Origin: a virus
Virus record (IMG/VR): IMGVR_UViG_3300025704_000043
Coordinates: 1-43,645 of that record
DNA length: 43,645 nucleotides
Direction: 5' to 3' (one strand)
In this document: one piece after another, positions 14,229 to 43,645 of the stretch
Numbering within the stretch: position 1 is the stretch's first letter
How the letters are laid out: each line of letters begins with the position of its first letter
Made by a program: the position numbers and the translations under genes
Notes under the pieces: generated by a model
The model's input: the letters and a program-made list of their open reading frames with translations, nothing else
Databases searched by the model: none
Told to the model about the DNA's origin: nothing

Positions 14229-15785
14229 ATGACTGATAAGATTGTCAAGAACTTAAGTTTTGGTGATGACGCTAAAACTAAGGTATTCGAAGGAATAAAC
14301 AAATTAACAAAAGCCGTTAGTTCTACACTAGGAGCTAGTGGCCAATGTGTAATTTTAGAAGACGGTAGCGGAAGACCGGTTATTACAAAAGATGGTGTAA
14401 CCGTTGCTGATTCAATAACATTACTAGACCCAGTAGAAAATATGGGTGCTACGCTTTTAAAGGAAGCTGCTAGAAAAACCGTTAAAGAAGCTGGAGACGG
14501 AACGACCACGGCTACGGTACTAGCGCACTCAATATTAAGTGAAGCTTACGAGGCTTCAAAACAGAATAATATCAGAGTTATAAAAGATGGTATTAACACT
14601 GGGGTTGAGAAGGTAATAAAGTATTTAGAAAGAAAAAGTATCAGCGTCAGTGGTGATATGCTAAAAGACATTGCTACTATTAGTTGTAACAACGAGAGAT
14701 ATTTAGGTGAGATCATAGGTGATGCCTTTGAAGCTGCTGGAGAAAACGGTGTTGTTATAATGGAACAAACAGATACTGAAGAAACTAGCTTTGAGTTAGT
14801 TGATGGTGTTCAGTATGACAAAGGTTTGACAAACTCACATTTTGTGACTAGTCAGGAAAAAAGAATAGCTGAATTAGAAAGACCAGTTGTATTGCTATTA
14901 GAATCACCAGTTGAGTCTGTTAGAAAGATACAATCAATATTGGAATATGTTATTCAAAATAACAAACCGTTATTAGTTATAGGTGATTTAGATCCACAAG
15001 TGATCTCTACATTAGCTATGAATAAGGTTAAAGGAAATATAAAAGTCAACGTGATCAATGCTCCGACATACGGAATAAACAAAAAAGATGTATTATCTGA
15101 TCTAGCTGTATTAACAGGCGCGACAGTAATAAACGAAGATCTTGGAGATGACTTAGACGTCATAAACCCAAGTTTATTAGGTACATGTATAAAGAGTGTT
15201 ACTGATGATTACGAAACTATACTACAAGTAGACAACGAAACAGAAGAAGTTAAAAGTCTGATAGAAGAGGTTAAAAACCAAATCAAAGAAGCAAAAGCTC
15301 CTGGAGATGTTATTAGATTAGAAAAAAGACTATCAAGGTTGTCTGCTAAAGTAGCTATAGTAAAAGTAGGTGCTAACTCAGAAGTAGAGTTAAAAGAAAA
15401 ATCTGACAGAGTTGAAGACGCTATATGTGCTACTAAAGCCGCTATTAAAGAAGGTATAGTATCAGGTGGTGGAATCGCATTGTTAGATGCATCTACAAAA
15501 GTTAAACCAAAGAATATTGGTGAAGAGATATTGCTAGAGGCCATTAAGGCGCCATTTAAGAAGATATTAAGTAATTCAGGTGTTGAATTTCAGGTGTCAG
15601 GAAAAGAAGGCGTAGGAATGGACGTAATAACAGGTAAGATGGTTAATATGATTAAGAAAGGAATTATTGATCCTTTGTTAGTTACAAAAAGCGCCTTGAA
15701 AAACGCTGCTTCCGTTGCAACAACTATATTATCAACTGATTGTGTAATTAATAACTTAAGAGTTGGAGATGAAAGCAATAGGTAA
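14229..15785 (+). CDS. groL: phage-encoded chaperonin GroEL (518 aa)
   Basis: A near full-length GroEL (cellular ones are about 545 aa). All ATPase motifs are present: TLGASGQ with ITKDGVTVAD (Asp55, equivalent to Asp52), AGDGTTTATVLA (Asp90, equivalent to Asp87), and VEDAICATKAAIKEGIVSGG (Asp397, equivalent to Asp398), plus C-terminal SALKNAASVATTILSTDCVI. The apical substrate- and GroES-binding segment differs: the usual Y-x-x-x-Y-F reads GLTNSHF. The Gly-Gly-Met tail is absent, so it ends DESNR. The tail overlaps groES. It presumably folds phage capsid or fibre proteins, alone or mixed with host rings (inference). Confidence 0.93.
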   Translation: MTDKIVKNLSFGDDAKTKVFEGINKLTKAVSSTLGASGQCVILEDGSGRPVITKDGVTVADSITLLDPVENMGATLLKEAARKTVKEAGDGTTTATVLAHSILSEAYEASKQNNIRVIKDGINTGVEKVIKYLERKSISVSGDMLKDIATISCNNERYLGEIIGDAFEAAGENGVVIMEQTDTEETSFELVDGVQYDKGLTNSHFVTSQEKRIAELERPVVLLLESPVESVRKIQSILEYVIQNNKPLLVIGDLDPQVISTLAMNKVKGNIKVNVINAPTYGINKKDVLSDLAVLTGATVINEDLGDDLDVINPSLLGTCIKSVTDDYETILQVDNETEEVKSLIEEVKNQIKEAKAPGDVIRLEKRLSRLSAKVAIVKVGANSEVELKEKSDRVEDAICATKAAIKEGIVSGGGIALLDASTKVKPKNIGEEILLEAIKAPFKKILSNSGVEFQVSGKEGVGMDVITGKMVNMIKKGIIDPLLVTKSALKNAASVATTILSTDCVINNLRVGDESNR

Positions 15786-34285: not shown

Positions 34286-35707
34286 ATGGGAGCAATAATA
34301 GAAGTAAAATACTTTAACAGCTTTTTGCTAAAAAAAGTTGATGCAGACCTTGGTCTTTCTGATGATTATATACCTTCTTGGAATGGGTCAACTGGTATAC
34401 CTGCAGATATTGGTGGTTATCCTGTTATCAGCGAAGGAAACATTGACAACGGAAGCGACTGGGCCGTAGAAGAAGCAAGAATAAGAGGTGGTTATAACAA
34501 TACAAATGTAGATTATGGTGTTAGAGCCTACTTAGTCGAAGAAGAAGCAAATGCTGTTATAAGAAGTAATTCTTTAATATACTCAGGTATATTCAACTCT
34601 AGGACAGGTATAAATGATACTAATGTTTTTTCTGTCGGTGATAACATTACTAAGTCAGCTGATCCAGCTAACGGAAGTATACAAAAGCTATACGCTGAAG
34701 ATACTAATCTAATTATATTTCAAGAATCTAAAGTGTCTAGAGCTTTGATTGATAAAGATGCTATATACACAGCTGAAGGAAGTAGTAGTATATCTAACGT
34801 AAACACAACCATAGGCACAATACAGCCTTATGGAGGAAATTTTGGTATCAGTAGAGACCCAGGCAGCTTTGCAGTTTATGGATATAGAAAGTATTTTACC
34901 GATAAAGATAGAAACGCGGTTCTTAGATTATCTATGGATGGTTTAACAGAAATATCTAATTACGGGATGTATGACTATTTTAGAGATGAATTTAACGATA
35001 TAGATCAAACAGGTACAGTTGGACAATTAAAAGGAGGATGGGATATACACAACAAACAATATGTTGTATCGTCTCAACGAAGTGTTCTTTCAGATGATGA
35101 TAGTTATAAAACATTGTCTTTTGACGAAAGTGTAAAAGGTTGGACTAGTTTCTTCACGTACAAGCCTGATCAAATGTTTAGTATAAAAAATAACTTCTAC
35201 ACAGTAAAAGACAACGGGTTGTGGCAGCACTACTCTGCTGATGTAGATAGAGGTAGCTTTTATGGAGTAACAACGCCTTCATTAGTTCACTTTGTATTTA
35301 ATAATAGAGTTAGCTTGTCTAAGGTTTTTAAAACAATAAGCTACGAAGGTAGTAATGGTTGGCAGGTTAATAGCTTTATTTCAGATGAAACTGGCCTAGA
35401 TATGGTCAACAGCGGATGGTCAAACTCTTTTGACAGCACTACTTTAGTTAAAAGTTATAACGAAGGATCTTATACTGAAAACAATACAGTATATAGAGTT
35501 GGTTTTGATAGAAAAGAAAACAAGTATCATGCTAATTTAATAAACAATTCTGAACCCACTGCTGGCGAGGTTTCTTGGGGACCAAGTATGTCTGGCGTAA
35601 AAGGCTTTTTTGCTAATGTGGTGGTTTCAACAGATTCAACTACAGATCCAGGAGGTCCAAAAGAGCTTTTTGCAGTTTCATCTAACTATATAGAATCATC
35701 TTATTAA
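34286..35707 (+). CDS. tail nozzle-like protein 2 (473 aa)
   Basis: The protein has the signature ARIRGGYNNTNVDYGVRAYL, SLIYSGIFNSRTGINDTNVF, GSIQKLYAEDTNLIIFQESK, VSRALIDKDAIYTAEG and FAVYGYRKYFTDKDRNAVLR. In related phages I know, these blocks occur in the second half of the nozzle or muzzle. It starts 38 nt after the 1291-aa protein in another frame, so the pair are probably partners in a beta-propeller ring at the end of the tail. The gap (34248-34285) is non-coding. Confidence 0.7.
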   Translation: MGAIIEVKYFNSFLLKKVDADLGLSDDYIPSWNGSTGIPADIGGYPVISEGNIDNGSDWAVEEARIRGGYNNTNVDYGVRAYLVEEEANAVIRSNSLIYSGIFNSRTGINDTNVFSVGDNITKSADPANGSIQKLYAEDTNLIIFQESKVSRALIDKDAIYTAEGSSSISNVNTTIGTIQPYGGNFGISRDPGSFAVYGYRKYFTDKDRNAVLRLSMDGLTEISNYGMYDYFRDEFNDIDQTGTVGQLKGGWDIHNKQYVVSSQRSVLSDDDSYKTLSFDESVKGWTSFFTYKPDQMFSIKNNFYTVKDNGLWQHYSADVDRGSFYGVTTPSLVHFVFNNRVSLSKVFKTISYEGSNGWQVNSFISDETGLDMVNSGWSNSFDSTTLVKSYNEGSYTENNTVYRVGFDRKENKYHANLINNSEPTAGEVSWGPSMSGVKGFFANVVVSTDSTTDPGGPKELFAVSSNYIESSY

Positions 35708-35726
35708 AATATAAAAACATAAAACT

Positions 35727-36413
35727 ATGCCATTAATGACAGCAGGCCTCATAACAGGAGGTATACAAGCTTTAACAGGTCTTTTCGGTGCTTCGGCTGC
35801 TAAAAAAAGACAAGCAGCCGCAGCGAGACAAAAAAGAGCTGCACAGACGAAGTTACAGAACCTAGAAGACAATAGGCAAGCTATTATAAATCCATATGAA
35901 AGTATGGAGGATTTATCTTCTACTATTCAAAACCCTTTTGAAAATCTAGGCGTAGCGACTCAAGCTGCAGAAATGCAAGCTGAAGAAGCTGATATCGCTT
36001 TAGCTAATACGTTAGACACTATAGCTGCTACAGGAGCAAGCGCTGGTGGTGCAACTGCTTTAGCTCAAGCTGCTTTACAATCTAAAAAAGGTATTTCTGC
36101 TAACATAGAGCAACAAGAAGCTAGTAATGAAAGAGCTAGAGCTCAAGGACAGCAACAGCAACAGCAGCTTATTATGGCTGAAAAGCAAAGAATTCAAGGC
36201 GCGGAAGCTAAAGGTGCTGAGTTTATGTACAGAGAACAAGAGAGCAGAGATCTAATGCAAATGGATAGGTTATCTGCTCAAATAGCAGGTTCAGAAGCTA
36301 GAGAAATGCAAGCAGGCGCTGATAGAAGTAATGCTATCGCAGGCGCTGTTGGTGGAATAGCTTCAACTGTTGGAGGAATGTATAAAGCAGGTGCTTTCGG
36401 AAAGGGAAAGTAG
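35727..36413 (+). CDS. internal virion protein, 0-frame product (228 aa)
   Basis: The N-terminus (MPLMTAGLITGGIQALTGLF then GASAAKKRQAAAARQKRAAQ) is a hydrophobic, possibly membrane-inserting segment followed by a basic Ala/Gln-rich coiled coil; the C-terminus is GGIASTVGGMYKAGAFGKGK. The composition and place before two larger internal proteins resemble T7 gp14-type ejection proteins. The last codons include GGGAAAG in the correct frame for -1 slippage, directly before TAG; the extended product is listed separately. Confidence 0.7.
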   Translation: MPLMTAGLITGGIQALTGLFGASAAKKRQAAAARQKRAAQTKLQNLEDNRQAIINPYESMEDLSSTIQNPFENLGVATQAAEMQAEEADIALANTLDTIAATGASAGGATALAQAALQSKKGISANIEQQEASNERARAQGQQQQQQLIMAEKQRIQGAEAKGAEFMYREQESRDLMQMDRLSAQIAGSEAREMQAGADRSNAIAGAVGGIASTVGGMYKAGAFGKGK

Positions 36414-36484
36414 CAACACCGGTAAGTGGTAAAACTGCAGACGTACAATCAGTATCATCTTACGACACAGATTTAATCGTTTAA
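35727..36484 (+). CDS. predicted -1 frameshift product of the internal virion protein (252 aa)
   Basis: The 0-frame ends in AAG GGA AAG TAG. The heptamer G GGA AAG (36404-36410) is of the X XXY YYZ type and is the same heptamer as the lambda G/GT tail frameshift site; A AAG GGA just before it (36401-36407) is a second possible slippery site. A -1 slip reads through 24 more codons to the stop at 36484, adding GKGK followed by VATPVSGKTADVQSVSSYDT and DLIV. Otherwise 36414-36501 would be an unexplained gap in a tight gene row. No clear downstream pseudoknot is visible. A sequencing error is the alternative. Confidence 0.5.
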
Positions 36485-36501: not shown

Positions 36502-38016
36502 ATGAGTTATAGAAACCCACAACAAAACGTAGATACTCAGTCCGCTCAAGGGATTGCTAATCTACAGAGAACTATTGCTGGTACTTTTGGAGGTGTTGTT
36601 CAACAAGAATTACAGACACAGAAAGAGTTAGGAATACAGCAAAAAAAATTAGCAGATAAAAGAGCTAAGGAGTTAAAAGAGTACGAGAAACTAGAAGAAC
36701 AGGTTGCTCTGGGTATAAAGAACTATGAGATTGACAACCCTGATTTAAAAATAGGTGACTCTATGGCTCCTTTGGTTGACTCTTATAGCGATATAATGAC
36801 TAGAATAAACTCAGGAGCAGTAACTGATCCTAAGGAAATAGCTGCTCTTAGATCACAAGCATCTGATATTTTAACTATGCCTAAAAGAATAGGTAATATG
36901 CTAGAGAGCATTAGTGCAACTGATCTGTTAATGACAGAGACAGAAAAGAGATCTGGAAGAATGGGTGGACTAGATCCTTCTCAAGACAGTAACATGCCTG
37001 AGGTAATGAGAGTTTTAATGAACAAAGCTAAAGGTAATAGATCTACAAGGGTTGAGTTTGAAAATGGAAAATATAAAGCATATATAGACGTAACTCCAGA
37101 AGGTAGTAAAAAAACAACACTTACAGAAGAGCAGCTAGCAGATTACTTAAGTGGTAAAACGCAAGGTGTTCAGATTATACCTAACGCTACAGAAGCTATG
37201 GAGAATCTCAAGAACACTCATATACAAAGCATAGATTCAGAAGGTAAAAAAACATATATAAAGTCCGCTTTTGGTGAAGAAACAACTAGAGAAATTAAAA
37301 AAGACGGTAATGTAATTAGGATAGAGACTTACAAGCCTTTAAAAAGAGACTATTTAGCAAGTGCTGGAAAAGCTGTTATTGAAAGTGAGATTGCAGCAAT
37401 GAGTGAAACTGAAAAAGTAGCTTTTATGAATAACATTATTGAACCTGACACAAAAGGTTATACAATTGAAAATATAAAAGGAGAGAAAGAAAAGAAAGCT
37501 TTACTAAAGGGCTACACTGATTATTGGTTAGATAACTTTGCTCAAGATCAAGTAATTAGCACTAGAAACGTAGCTTTACCTAAAGAGAGTAAACCTACTC
37601 CTTCTGAAAAAAAGGAAGCGAAAGTATATAAAGACATAGAAAAAGACCTATCTGTGTTAACTAGCTCTGCAATAGGCGATATAAACAGAACTAACATAAC
37701 TTCTTTAGCTCAAAAAATAGGAGTAGCAGTGAATCAAGACGATGTTGAAACAGCTAGTGGCAAAAAAAGTTATAATTTACCTATCAAAGGCGGTAAGGGC
37801 TTTTTAACTATTACACCAGACGCTTCTGATAAAGACGTTTTAAAGTTGATATTAAAAGCTAAAGGATATAAAAGCTCTGATGTTGACACGTTCATTGAAA
37901 CTTTTTACAAAAAAGAAAAAGAAAATGTGCAAGGAACAGGACCTTTAAGTAACGATTTTACAAACCCTGAATATTTTACAAAGAGTAGTGTAAATAGCGC
38001 AGCTAGATTCAACTAA
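36502..38016 (+). CDS. internal virion / cargo protein (504 aa)
   Basis: The N-terminal 70 residues are Gln-rich and basic (NVDTQSAQGIANLQRTIAGT, then a Lys/Glu coiled coil KKLADKRAKELKEYEKLEEQ). The middle and C-terminal parts are charged and helical, with SMAPLVDSYSDIMTRINSGA and KSYNLPIKGGKGFLTITPDA. No catalytic motif is recognised. Its place between the gp14-like protein and the giant protein matches T7 gp15-type internal core or cargo proteins, ejected with the DNA. This is inferred from order. Confidence 0.6.
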   Translation: MSYRNPQQNVDTQSAQGIANLQRTIAGTFGGVVQQELQTQKELGIQQKKLADKRAKELKEYEKLEEQVALGIKNYEIDNPDLKIGDSMAPLVDSYSDIMTRINSGAVTDPKEIAALRSQASDILTMPKRIGNMLESISATDLLMTETEKRSGRMGGLDPSQDSNMPEVMRVLMNKAKGNRSTRVEFENGKYKAYIDVTPEGSKKTTLTEEQLADYLSGKTQGVQIIPNATEAMENLKNTHIQSIDSEGKKTYIKSAFGEETTREIKKDGNVIRIETYKPLKRDYLASAGKAVIESEIAAMSETEKVAFMNNIIEPDTKGYTIENIKGEKEKKALLKGYTDYWLDNFAQDQVISTRNVALPKESKPTPSEKKEAKVYKDIEKDLSVLTSSAIGDINRTNITSLAQKIGVAVNQDDVETASGKKSYNLPIKGGKGFLTITPDASDKDVLKLILKAKGYKSSDVDTFIETFYKKEKENVQGTGPLSNDFTNPEYFTKSSVNSAARFN

Positions 38017-38031
38017 AAACAAGAATAAGAC

Positions 38032-41000
38032 ATGAACGAAGAAGCATTACTACATTCATTTGAGTTATTTTCTAAAGATGGCTATGAAGGAAGTATAAAA
38101 GATTATAAAGAGTTAATAAAAACAAACAAAGAAGCTTTAAAACACTCTTATGATCTTTTTTCTAAAGATGGTTACGAAGGTGACGAGTATAAATTCCAAG
38201 ACTTAGTTGGTGTTGAGCTAGTAAAGACAGAAGCTGTTGCAACGGAAACTGCACCTGTAACAGCGGGGAATCAAGCAGTAGATACGGGTTTAGAATCGGG
38301 AGATGGTTTATTGGCATCGTCAAGTGATAAGTTCAAGAACTTTTTAGCAAATCAAGGTGTTGAGCCTCAGAAAGATATAACACCTGATGAGTTTGAAAGC
38401 TTTTTAGATGCCGCTGATGGTATTTCACCAGGAGCTAAGCTAGATCTTAAAACAGCTAAGTATAAGCAAGAAATTCAAGATGAAACAAAGTCTATATTAA
38501 ATAATAGATCAGCTCAACTTCCTAAAACAGAATTAGGAACCATTAATTTTGATGATAAAAAAGCTATTGAAAAATTTAGAAAAGACGCTCTTTTAGATTT
38601 CACCTCTAGCAATAGCACTATACAGAATAAAATTATACCTAGTATAAAAAAAGCTATAAAACCAGCTGTTGACACTTATGTGCAAGAAGCTATGGTTAAA
38701 TACAAGCTAAACGACCCGAGCAGCGTAACTCAAGAAAACCTTGACTCTTTCAATAAAGATGTTAATTCTTTCTATAATGAGTTAATGAAAACCAAAATAT
38801 CAAACAATACTGACTTTAAAGCTTTAACAGCGGCTTTTGAAGAATCCGTAGACGATAAAGCTGCTGATCCTTTAAAAAGCTTCGTGCAGTCAAAAGATAT
38901 GCCTACATTGTATCAAATGGGTCAAACGGCAAAGAAAATAGGCTTTGGAGCTCCAACAGTTGTTAAGTCTATGGCAGTTGCTGTCACTGGTCTTAGAGGT
39001 GTTAACGAAGGCCTTAAAGAGTGGGCTAATAACGCTAGTTACAAACAGGTTATAGACAAAGTTGTTTCTTTTGAAGAAAACGAAACTCGTGCTAAAAAGT
39101 ATAATTGGAGCGATAACACTGAAGGTTATTTTATAGAAGACAAAACAAACGAAAAAGGTTCTTATAGGTTTAAGCCTAGGTTTACAGGAGCTTTAAAATC
39201 AAAGGACGGTGTTTCTTATAGAGACGTTAATGAGTTAGTAGAGCAACCAAAACCTGGAGGTGCTAAACCTATAACTTGGGGTGATTTTAAGCTTAAATTT
39301 AAACAATACGAAAAAGAACAAGACGAAAAAGCATTAAAAGCTTTTGCAGATATTCAGAATGAGCAATTCATACTTTCTAACTACGATAAAGGTGAATTAG
39401 ACAAGATATTTAAAGGTGAAGATATTATAGCTAATTCTATACTTCTAACAGCTGAACAACTTTCTCAAATGGCTTTAGCGTATATTACATTAGGTGCTTC
39501 TGGTGCCTTACAGATGGGTGGTGATATATATACTCAAGGTATAGATGTCGAAGCTAGAAAAAGGTTTGACTTGTCTGAAGAAGATAGAGTTACTTTAGAT
39601 ATGAAAAAAGAAATATTTAAAGACAAAAAGTTTATGGATTCTTTAGAGGCTAAAAGTGTCGCTGGAGGATTTGCTGCAGGTCAAATGGAACGATTTGGTG
39701 CTGGTAAAACATTGAAACCTTTTATTACAGGACTCAATAAATCCTTACTAAGAAGTGGTTACAAGAACTTTTTAAAAGACGCAACAAACAAGCTTGTAGC
39801 AAACGCCCAGAACTCTAGCATAGAAGCTATAACAGAGACAGGTCAAGAAATAATAACAGCAGCTGCTTCCGGTGGAGAATTAGACGCTAAGCAACTTTTT
39901 GATGCCGGTGCTACTGGTTTCATATCCTCTTTCACTACAGGTATAGGTGGTAATATAGGAAATCAATCTATATCCGAAGCAAAAGCTTTTAGCAAGATTA
40001 TAGCAGGGAAATTAAACTCTAATAGCTCTGAAGCTATGTTTAATTTTAAAATAAAAGAAATAGAAGATCAAGCTAAAAAAGAAACTAAAGCTAATGTTAA
40101 AAAAGATTTACTAGAAAAAAGAGACGCTATCATAGAGGTTCGAAACGCTGGTTTATCTGTGCCTAAAGATTTTAGCAGCGATTCTAAAAGTAAAGCTATA
40201 GATCTTATAATTAAGAAAAAACAACTAGAAAAAGACATAGAAGGGAAAGAGCCTGAATTAGTTACAAACCAAAAAGAAGAAATAAAAAAGATTAATACCG
40301 AGCTGCAGAAAGTGGCTGCAGATAATACGCTTGAAAAAACAACAAAATCTATAGAAAAACTAGCTGGTGACATTAAAGGTGTAAATGTTAAGTCATTAGA
40401 TAATGCAAAAGCTATAGACGACTATATAAAAGAAAATAACTTAGATATAGACAAGAAAGCTTCTGAACAGCAAGGTTTTATATTTCAAAACAAAGAAACA
40501 GGTGAGCAAACTATAATAATAAACAAAGACGTAGCTGCTAAAGAACAAGCTGTAAACGTTGCTGCCCACGAATTTCTACATGCATTACTCTTTCAGACAG
40601 TAAAAGATAGTCCTACTACACAAGTGTCTTTAGGTAACTCTTTAAAAAGCTATTTAGATAAAGTAGATGCTGATCAAGTAAAAGATAGTAATTTCGCTAA
40701 AAGGCTAGATCAATACAAGCAAGATCCAAACAATGTAAAAGCAGAAGAAGTTATAACTTTATTCTCTGACGCTTTAGCTACTGGAGACATCAAGTTCAAC
40801 GAAAATGTTTTTACTAAAATAGGTGATGTTATCCGTAGAGCATTGCAATCTGTAGGTGTCAGCGTTAAGTTTAACAATGGTAAAGACGTATACAATTTTG
40901 TTAAAGATTACAATAAAAGTGTATCAAAAGGAAAGCTTACTAAAGCACAAATAAAAGCTTCTAAAGGAGTTAAAGGTAGTTTAGTTGCTGAAGGTGTGAC

Positions 41001-43645
41001 AACCGCTTCTAAAACCGTTTCAAAAGAATCAAGCACATCTTTTAGTAAAGCTGATGAAGACCTTAAAATTAAAGAGTCAATAAAGAAAAAAGGAAAAGAA
41101 ATATCTGCTTTGGTTCCAGAAGGAACTACTAAAAAACAATACGATAGAAGAATAGTTGGAGATGTATACCAGAAGTTAATAGCCACAGATTATTTAGACA
41201 AAACTATAAAGAATCAATTTCGAAAAAACAATATAATAGTAGAAAATGGTAAAGTATATGATGTAGATATAGACACGGTTATAGAAGACATAAAACAAAA
41301 ACTTCTTGAAAGTACTATACTTAGGTTTAATCCAGAAGTAAACAAAGACTTTGGTGGTTTTCTAATGAGTGAATTGGTTAATTACAGGATTGGTGACGTA
41401 ACAAATAAACTTAAACCTAAGAAAGGAACTAAAAGAATAGATGCCGAAGCAGGGACTGTAGGTTCTATCTCAGAGATAGCTGATAATTCAATGAGTATTG
41501 AAGATCAAATCGATTTAGATGCTGCGCAAGCGAGTTCTGAGACTAGATTAATTAAAGCAACTAAAATACTATCAAAAGAGCAGTATGATAAAGTTTTCAA
41601 GGAAGTTGAAGCAGCTGTACAGAATATAGATCCTAAAGACTTAAGTTACAAAAATGTTAAAGAATTTGGAGCTGAAGTTTTATCTGAAATTACAGGTGTT
41701 CCTGCTGAAAAAATATTAGACACTAGCAAGAACTTGTCTAAAGGACAAGCTACTAGCGCGGCTATGTTTATTGAAAATAACGTTGACTATATTAGAAAAA
41801 CATTACCAAAAGGAGCTGTAACAGAAGCTGCAAATGAAGATCTAATGAACACAGCAACCAATCTTCCTAATAAAGTTCTTAAAAAACTGTATAATAAAAA
41901 TCCTAGAATTACTAAGAAAGAAGGTTTATCTCCTTATACTTTAAAGCCAAACTTGAAAAATCAAGATATACTAGATGCTATAGGTAGATTTAAAAGAGCA
42001 GATGGTAAAAAATTCCAAATAAACCCTAGAACACCTGAAGCTGTAGCTATGCAAGGTTTATTAAACATAGTAGAAAGAAATATCTCTAACGAGCTTGTTA
42101 GAACTGTGCCTAGCAATTTAACTCTTGAGCAAAAACAAGATGTTGCTGCCGGTAAAAGTAATTTAATGTTTTCTAAAAAAATAGAAAATGCTACAAGCAA
42201 AGATTTCTTAAGTAGCAAAGTGTCTGAAAAAGCTAAAACTTCTATAATTAACAACATTAGCAATGTTTTGGTCGGTTCTAAGGCAAGCGACACATTGATG
42301 ACTGAGCTTAACAACGCGATATCTAAAAGAGTTGAAGAGTCTAAAAACATGGGTCAAGTTTTAGAATCAATGTTTGAAGAATCTGAAAGAATATTAAGCA
42401 CTAGGCAGTCTAGAGAGCTTCAAGCTAAGTTGGTTGTTGCTGTTCAAGATAGCTTTACTGAAAACCAAAACAATAGATCTTTAGTTTATAGCGCTGCTAA
42501 ATCCATAAGAACATTTTTCAAATATCAAAGAGAAATAATAGGTTACGGGTATATAAAAAACAAACTAAAAGAAGACGTTAGTAAGTCTAAAACTTTAGAA
42601 GAAAAAATTAAAGTTATTAAAGAGTTTTTAGTTTTTGGTAGTAGATCTATAAGAACATCTAAGATTGACGGTATAACAACTAATAAAGAGATTTTTAATA
42701 AAATAATTAAACCATTAAAAGACGCAGACAAAGACTTAAAAGGTTTTAAAACTTTTACTAGAAAAAATAGATCTTATATCACTTACAACGGCAAAGTAGT
42801 AGCCGGTTTATCTAGCATATACGACATTAAAAACGATTTTGCTAATAGTGAAAATTTAATAAATAACGAAGCAGAAACTTCTAGAGAGTATATTGTAAAA
42901 CAAATAGATCAAGCTAGAAGTAACAATGATATAGATGGGGTCATAGCTATGCTAGCTGTGCTTTCGTCTGATCAAAGAGGTGCTTTGAGAAAGTCTTCTA
43001 AAGCAGGTTTCTACATTGAGGGTATTGCTTCTGATAAACTTATATTAGAGCACGAAATGGAAGCTTTTTCAATACACGAGTCTTATGTGCAATATGCTAA
43101 AGATGGTGATATAGTTAAACTAAAAGAAGCGCTTTCTGAAGCATACATTAATTCTATACCTAAATACTTGGATGCTTTGTTAAATTTTAAAGGCAATAAG
43201 TTATCAAACATAGAAAGATACAAAACAAAAAAGATTGTAGACGAGTTACGAAGTCTAAACGATCAAGGTAGATTGAAGAACTTTGATCAATCAAGATACG
43301 GTGTTAAGCTTAGCAAATCTATAAACTTAGACAAAGAGTTTAACGATATTATAGAAAATAAAACAGGTATAGAGTCTTATAAAGATTACAAAAGAGTTAA
43401 AGCTCAAGTAGTTGGATCAAGTAAAGGTAAGTTTAACTTCTTTATCGCTCCGTCAGCTGAGGACTTTGTTGGGTTACTATATAAGACTTTAGGTAAAGGC
43501 AAGATTGGAGACGCTCAAATGGCTTGGTACAAGGAAAACCTACTAGATCCATACGCTAGAGCTATGGAAAAAGTATCTAGAGATAGAAACTTTATGGCTA
43601 GAAACTTTTTAGCTATAAAGAAAGAACTTAAGATCGTGCCAAAAA
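38032..43645 (+). CDS. giant internal virion protein, 5' part (at least 1,871 aa; runs off window)
   Basis: The ATG at 38032 opens a frame to the window end. The N-terminus has a tandem repeat, LFSKDGYEG at residues 12-20 and 42-50, an N-terminal motif I know from giant virion proteins of marine flavobacterial phages. Residues 844-854 read AAHEFLHALLF, so 846-850 is the HExxH zincin motif; Glu905/Glu906 in AEEVITLF may be the third ligand. A Gly/Ala-rich amphipathic stretch (about 470-640) could insert in membranes. Near the end, YKTLGKGKIGDAQMAWYKEN then LLDPYARAM is typical of the same family. A T7 gp16-like ejection role with peptidase activity is inferred; the 3' end is missing. Confidence 0.75.
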   Translation, partial: MNEEALLHSFELFSKDGYEGSIKDYKELIKTNKEALKHSYDLFSKDGYEGDEYKFQDLVGVELVKTEAVATETAPVTAGNQAVDTGLESGDGLLASSSDKFKNFLANQGVEPQKDITPDEFESFLDAADGISPGAKLDLKTAKYKQEIQDETKSILNNRSAQLPKTELGTINFDDKKAIEKFRKDALLDFTSSNSTIQNKIIPSIKKAIKPAVDTYVQEAMVKYKLNDPSSVTQENLDSFNKDVNSFYNELMKTKISNNTDFKALTAAFEESVDDKAADPLKSFVQSKDMPTLYQMGQTAKKIGFGAPTVVKSMAVAVTGLRGVNEGLKEWANNASYKQVIDKVVSFEENETRAKKYNWSDNTEGYFIEDKTNEKGSYRFKPRFTGALKSKDGVSYRDVNELVEQPKPGGAKPITWGDFKLKFKQYEKEQDEKALKAFADIQNEQFILSNYDKGELDKIFKGEDIIANSILLTAEQLSQMALAYITLGASGALQMGGDIYTQGIDVEARKRFDLSEEDRVTLDMKKEIFKDKKFMDSLEAKSVAGGFAAGQMERFGAGKTLKPFITGLNKSLLRSGYKNFLKDATNKLVANAQNSSIEAITETGQEIITAAASGGELDAKQLFDAGATGFISSFTTGIGGNIGNQSISEAKAFSKIIAGKLNSNSSEAMFNFKIKEIEDQAKKETKANVKKDLLEKRDAIIEVRNAGLSVPKDFSSDSKSKAIDLIIKKKQLEKDIEGKEPELVTNQKEEIKKINTELQKVAADNTLEKTTKSIEKLAGDIKGVNVKSLDNAKAIDDYIKENNLDIDKKASEQQGFIFQNKETGEQTIIINKDVAAKEQAVNVAAHEFLHALLFQTVKDSPTTQVSLGNSLKSYLDKVDADQVKDSNFAKRLDQYKQDPNNVKAEEVITLFSDALATGDIKFNENVFTKIGDVIRRALQSVGVSVKFNNGKDVYNFVKDYNKSVSKGKLTKAQIKASKGVKGSLVAEGVTTASKTVSKESSTSFSKADEDLKIKESIKKKGKEISALVPEGTTKKQYDRRIVGDVYQKLIATDYLDKTIKNQFRKNNIIVENGKVYDVDIDTVIEDIKQKLLESTILRFNPEVNKDFGGFLMSELVNYRIGDVTNKLKPKKGTKRIDAEAGTVGSISEIADNSMSIEDQIDLDAAQASSETRLIKATKILSKEQYDKVFKEVEAAVQNIDPKDLSYKNVKEFGAEVLSEITGVPAEKILDTSKNLSKGQATSAAMFIENNVDYIRKTLPKGAVTEAANEDLMNTATNLPNKVLKKLYNKNPRITKKEGLSPYTLKPNLKNQDILDAIGRFKRADGKKFQINPRTPEAVAMQGLLNIVERNISNELVRTVPSNLTLEQKQDVAAGKSNLMFSKKIENATSKDFLSSKVSEKAKTSIINNISNVLVGSKASDTLMTELNNAISKRVEESKNMGQVLESMFEESERILSTRQSRELQAKLVVAVQDSFTENQNNRSLVYSAAKSIRTFFKYQREIIGYGYIKNKLKEDVSKSKTLEEKIKVIKEFLVFGSRSIRTSKIDGITTNKEIFNKIIKPLKDADKDLKGFKTFTRKNRSYITYNGKVVAGLSSIYDIKNDFANSENLINNEAETSREYIVKQIDQARSNNDIDGVIAMLAVLSSDQRGALRKSSKAGFYIEGIASDKLILEHEMEAFSIHESYVQYAKDGDIVKLKEALSEAYINSIPKYLDALLNFKGNKLSNIERYKTKKIVDELRSLNDQGRLKNFDQSRYGVKLSKSINLDKEFNDIIENKTGIESYKDYKRVKAQVVGSSKGKFNFFIAPSAEDFVGLLYKTLGKGKIGDAQMAWYKENLLDPYARAMEKVSRDRNFMARNFLAIKKELKIVPK

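Follow-up and report, generated by a model that had tools for sequence, protein, structure and literature searches.

The small gene behind the muzzle gene of a crAss-like phage, contained in a 43,645-base virus record that was analysed over its whole length (the window), very probably ends in a genuine programmed -1 ribosomal frameshift site. In this and related uncultivated crAss-like phages the shift, falling within the final codons of a predicted small ejection protein, would give rise to a short and a long form. The features that point to this, namely the slippery heptamer, the stop codon, the tail in the -1 frame, the filling of the gap before the next gene, the conservation of the tails and the placement of a hairpin in the family, are apparent from the sequences themselves.

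Slip site and tail of the 228-amino-acid protein

The 0-frame ORF (35727-36413, + strand) codes for 228 amino acids, the last of which are FGKGK (TTC GGA AAG GGA AAG TAG). The heptamer G_GGA_AAG (GGGAAAG) is located at 36404-36410 (+), directly followed by the TAG stop codon (36411-36413, +), and as GGA and AAG are both 0-frame codons it is in the right phase for a -1 slip. From 36410 the -1 frame reads VATPVSGKTADVQSVSSYDTDLIV, comprising 24 codons and ending with a TAA codon at 36482-36484 (+), 17 nt upstream of the next ATG (36502). The tail (36410-36484) would extend the protein from 228 to a predicted 252 amino acids, and the tryptic peptides predicted from it include VATPVSGK and TADVQSVSSYDTDLIV. 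Direct reading of the sequence bears out the initial annotation as to the heptamer at the end of the ORF, its coordinates and a -1 frame that is open for 24 codons to 36484. The overlapping second heptamer that it proposed, A_AAG_GGA, is present at 36401-36407 but lies outside the conserved pattern.

A stop-free run of 24 codons in a wrong frame has a chance of about 0.06 in the window genome and is weak evidence by itself. The tail has a coding score of 8.3, compared to an average of 7.0 for the true genes of this genome. All 46 wrong-frame stop-free stretches score lower than the tail, whose codon usage is that of genuine genes. Upstream of the TAG codon the -1 frame is open for eight codons only and contains no ATG, GTG or TTG, so that the shift must fall in the last few codons of the gene. 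This bears on the idea that the tail represents an independent small gene, translated from its own start codon or by termination-reinitiation, with which the normal distance between the tail ends and the next gene would agree. However, aside from the missing start codon in the window, most of the related sequences described below also lack a suitable start before the tail, and a separate gene would leave both heptamer and hairpin unexplained, making it an exceedingly unlikely explanation.

Genomic context and identity of the protein

The gene directly upstream (34286-35707, +) encodes a crAss muzzle-like protein (PF25729 crAss_MUZ_C, 41.1 bits against a cutoff of 27), by which the window phage is assigned as crAss-like, with a Crassvirales-type virion. 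PF25729 matches are above cutoff in the window and six relatives, five of which carry the heptamer, with L012 as the sixth, and the portal and terminase of the window match phage head-and-packaging PHROGs. Downstream are genes coding for a 504-amino-acid protein in the gp15 position (36502-38016, +) and a protein of >1871 amino acids in the gp16 position (38032-43645, +) which runs off the window, both assigned by position and size only. The ejection-position genes behind the muzzle gene (228, 504 and >1871 amino acids) thus occur in a small-medium-large order, as do the ejection genes of known systems (PMC8954989), and the gp14-gp15-gp16 order of T7 is matched by these three genes after the nozzle gene. 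In the giant gp16-position protein (38032-43645) a HEFLH motif like that of zinc metalloproteases was spotted by eye. Elsewhere in the window (14229-15785) a 518-amino-acid chaperonin of the Cpn60/TCP-1 family is encoded (PF00118, 195 bits).

The AlphaFold model of the 228-amino-acid protein is all helix (pLDDT 75, pTM 0.43), and its best match among the viral models of BFVD is A0A218MMJ5, annotated 'Internal virion protein' (E=2e-6); other gp14-type matches were weak. The ORF, its neighbours, the model and the BFVD match suggest that it is likely the gp14-position, probable small ejection protein. Alignment with T7 gp14 using hhalign detected no sequence match (probability 0.2%), and the protein is therefore labelled gp14-position rather than a proven gp14 homologue. 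Sequence and fold searches of the PDB with the window protein returned no significant match, Pfam and PHROGs yielded no family for it (other members of the gene family matched weakly), and tblastn with the window protein and that of L010 gave no match among 50,697 phage records, so that no cultured representative was found.

Recurrence of the heptamer and tail among relatives

Scans of viral contigs and genomes identified the gene in 583 sequences including the window, of which 257 remained after removal of duplicates. A mechanical criterion, a slippery heptamer at most three codons from the stop together with a -1 extension of 12-60 codons, selected 27 non-redundant members, 26 of which are considered genuine. 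The -1 frame of the remaining one, L473, merely overlaps the next gene and it was excluded; in L011, L014 and sequences like them, long -1 extensions run into the start of the next gene and were likewise rejected as tails. A heptamer within the last three codons and a -1 tail of 15-49 codons are thus found in 26 of the 257 non-redundant relatives, including the window, and heptamer and tail are strongly associated (Fisher p=6e-14, on counts that include the spurious L473). The heptamer is GGGAAAG or GGGAAAA in 18 of these, AAAAAAG in four, GGGAAAT in three and GGGAAAC in one. In bacteria, G_GGA_AAT and G_GGA_AAC should be less efficient slip sites. Among 59,711 interior codons of the gene family, in-phase GGGAAAR occurs three times, as opposed to 18 of 257 gene ends. 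TAG is the 0-frame stop in 21 of the 27 listed heptamer members as against 20 of the 230 others.

The initial annotation had also noted that the tail fills what would otherwise be an odd gap, and the same is observed in most of the 26 heptamer relatives. Between the 0-frame stop and the next gene there is a median of 104 nt in the heptamer members versus 11.5 nt in the rest, and the -1 tails mostly terminate 4-20 nt before the next ATG, an ordinary intergenic distance. Exceptions are L182, in which tail and next gene share 8 nt, L340, where the tail runs near the contig end, and L076 and L227, in which no long ORF begins directly downstream. Gaps exceeding 55 nt are otherwise confined to four members, including L012 and L460 with -1 tails of 34 and 31 codons. 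In these two, L012 (5648-5766) and L460 (near the gene end), T_TTT_TAA or T_TTT_TAG is found at the stop and the tails fill gaps of 104-122 nt, possibly through slippage of the phenylalanine tRNA at the stop codon.

Reading of TAG as glutamine is known in some crAss phages. For the window such recoding was rejected: the genes further on are read in the standard code, 0-frame readthrough would encounter TAA four codons on, and the stop is TAA in six of the 27 listed heptamer members.

A hairpin downstream of the heptamer

When perfect stems in the 26 members were scored by their distance from the heptamer, a single peak was obtained at 4-7 nt, sharp at 5 nt. The summed stem score at 3-8 nt is 315, compared to a mean of 149 (maximum 219) in 500 base shuffles; at a control position located further downstream it is 116. 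The stems vary in sequence (CCCC/GGGG in L198, GGGGC/GCCCC in L204 and GCCC/GGGC in L330), with strong hairpins in L204 and L199. In the window, the weak candidate stimulatory hairpin ACCG-gtaag-TGGT is located 7 nt past the heptamer (36418-36430, +). It has only the stem ACCG/TGGT with a score of 8.8, among the lower ones of the set, and the window sequence folded alone is no better than its shuffles, making the stimulator in this virus uncertain.

Slippage of the polymerase on the A/G run during transcription would yield the same long form, and a few members do have longer A runs (AAAAAAG). The runs in GGGAAAG are, however, no longer than three nucleotides, and a run of three is too short for polymerase slippage. 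The hairpin, at a distance typical of ribosomal sites, fits a ribosomal slip, and a transcriptional origin of the long form has hardly any probability.

An assembly or sequencing indel, by which a base was lost or gained in the heptamer run of what is truly a single-frame gene of about 252 amino acids, must also be considered, since the relatives closest to the window (L002, at 88% identity, L003, L004 and L029) have in-frame tails and total lengths of 246-262 amino acids, similar to that of the long form. A second contig (L001), which differs from the window at 17 sites about 4 kb downstream, is nevertheless identical to it at the slip site, and 26 non-redundant members are laid out alike, each with an in-phase heptamer by the stop. 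An indel would neither place a hairpin 4-7 nt downstream nor enrich TAG stops, and is considered very improbable. The comparison of homologues proposed in the initial annotation has a mixed outcome, in that the closest relatives lack the heptamer and the early stop, but the signal reappears many times further out in the family. Its central claim, that a -1 shift provides an ejection-type protein with two C-terminal versions, is strongly supported by the comparison of relatives.

Selection on the tails

Judging from the substitutions between pairs of relatives, the -1 tails are conserved at the amino acid level, with pN/pS values of 0.16-0.6 in most pairs. Between the L198 and L199 tails pN/pS is 0.16 in the -1 frame, and 0.93 and 5.2 in the other frames. 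Values for L034/L091 (0.16), L010/L399 (0.28), L044/L091 (0.30), L034/L044 (0.37), L330/L328 (0.42), L203/L010 (0.44) and L163/L182 (0.57) are, like the preceding ones, purely descriptive counts on short tails. Two pairs show no clear purifying selection, L165/L227 (1.16, on five changes only) and L076/L245 (0.89), and are uninformative. The most telling case for the tails as protein is that of L330, whose -1 tail PPVEVGEEWGSYTPSL matches the in-frame tail PPTEVGETWGSYTPTL of its sister virus L328. As the nearest relatives of the window have in-frame tails, there is no close pair from which selection on its own tail could be estimated.

The occurrence of in-frame tails in sister viruses and the scattered distribution of the trait (about 16 changes on the protein tree) could also mean that the ancestor had an in-frame tail which a frameshift mutation has recently severed from the gene, so that an untranslated pseudo-tail remains. 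The -1 tails, however, keep their amino acids, with an excess of synonymous change over substantial divergence, the spacing to the next gene is preserved and slippery heptamers are enriched at the joint relative to the gene interior. It is accordingly highly unlikely that the tails are decayed remnants.

Variation and evolution of the C-terminus

When the trait (the 26 members together with L012 and L460) was mapped on a tree of the 257 proteins, about 16 changes were required, where 27 are expected at random (minimum 23 in 500 shuffles). Judged by this distribution, the frameshift arrangement is heritable but often gained or lost, the scatter over the tree implying repeated gain and loss. L203 and L204 have nearly identical 258-amino-acid bodies with unrelated -1 tails, and it is with L010 and L399, which are distant from it, that L203 has a similar tail; by these likenesses, tails seem to move between backbones.

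Besides viruses with in-frame or frameshift tails, there are relatives that lack a tail altogether and others with a long end that matches the S74 chaperone domain (L031, E 0.097, weak and below cutoff). L031, L054, L129, L139, L350, L565 and L567 share this long C-terminal domain (GLNIYSFEY...GVYQGVMSDE...DRVDYSKIDVEFK), whose weak, below-cutoff match is to the S74 endosialidase chaperone domain. Such an end would be unusual for a protein with a predicted role in ejection. At the gene end of L180 the 0 frame continues into sequence similar to the beginning of the following gene (MSYRNPQIIVDRSAEIW...), which suggests a gene fusion or a contig indel. The presence of in-frame, absent, S74-like and frameshift ends among relatives indicates that the C-terminus is an exchangeable slot, with frameshifting as one way of adding a tail.

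Proposed mechanism and comparison with known systems

A programmed -1 ribosomal frameshift would operate here as follows. A ribosome at G_GGA_AAG, with the stop codon next, would in some fraction of passes slip in tandem one base back, assisted in most relatives by the hairpin 4-7 nt downstream, and would then read 15-49 further codons (24 in the window). The resulting 228- and 252-amino-acid forms would be identical over the entire helical body, the C-terminal tail being the sole difference. We infer slippage in the host, its efficiency, the ratio of the two products (supposed to be fixed in the initial annotation), the entry of both forms into the virion and a function of the tail. Most plausibly, though this is a guess, the tail acts as a docking or assembly peptide that only some of the subunits require, as when the components of the ejection complex do not match in copy number or symmetry. 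A broader proposal, possible but rather doubtful, is that the C-terminus is a swappable slot which may be empty or hold an in-frame, an S74-type or a frameshift-dosed tail, and that the frameshift sets the fraction of subunits bearing the docking peptide, solving such a mismatch. A recurrent hairpin-assisted frameshift would result in an ejection complex built from two versions of its small subunit. Since the -1 tails escape ordinary gene calling, annotations of these proteins are likely to be wrong across the group.

Among phage virion genes, those coding for the capsid, the tail tube and the tail chaperone are known to use frameshifting. In phage lambda, the G/GT shift is likewise in the -1 direction and takes place at the heptamer G_GGA_AAG. 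The lambda shift differs in that it fuses a second domain and that both products leave the particle, whereas in the window family the gene is in an ejection position behind the muzzle gene and the tail comprises 15-49 residues. The neighbours are muzzle and ejection-position genes, rather than the G-T region before the tape measure gene of a long-tailed phage. Of the lambda-type signal named in the initial annotation, the slippery heptamer therefore stands, but the layout is that of a short C-terminal extension resembling T7 10A/10B, not of a two-domain G/GT fusion. G_GGA_AAG is highly shift-prone in E. coli (PMC5009743).

C-terminal extension of virion proteins by frameshifting is known in T7, T3, A2 and PSA (PMC5009743). 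Gene 10 of T7 and T3 (10A/10B) resembles the window gene in that a -1 slip near the end of a virion gene produces a C-terminally extended second form (PMC5009743); it differs in coding for the major capsid protein and in its slip site, the window family consisting of a small ejection-type protein with very short, interchangeable tails. In the Alteromonas phage vB_AspP-H4/4, a putative -1 frameshift yielding an internal virion protein is annotated for gp39/gp40, but in this single-genome annotation the shift links an endolysin frame on the 5' side to a long protein in the gp16 position, rather than adding a C-terminal tail to the small one (PMC5658483). The ejected cargo proteins gp45 and gp46 of the crassvirus PhicrAss001 are numbered after the muzzle gene, behind which the window gene also lies, but are much larger (90.8 and 60.2 kDa), with no frameshift reported (PMC10172136); the word 'frameshift' is absent from the crassvirus structure paper, and a review of ejection proteins (PMC8954989) does not mention frameshifting. 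In the open-access literature that was searched, no frameshift on a small ejection protein or in crassviruses was found, nor a description of the two-form small ejection protein to which the sequences of these crAss-like phages point.

In its size, helical nature and place in a small-medium-large ejection gene order the 228-amino-acid protein resembles T7 gp14 and P22 gp7 (PMC8954989), although it has no detectable sequence match to T7 gp14. Eight copies of gp14 are present in the T7 virion and six are resolved in the ejected channel, the rest being unexplained (PMC11784390). It may be speculated that a two-form subunit serves a symmetry mismatch like that of T7 gp14, and the presence of two forms in the crAss-like phages would make a copy mismatch of the T7 gp14 type directly testable.
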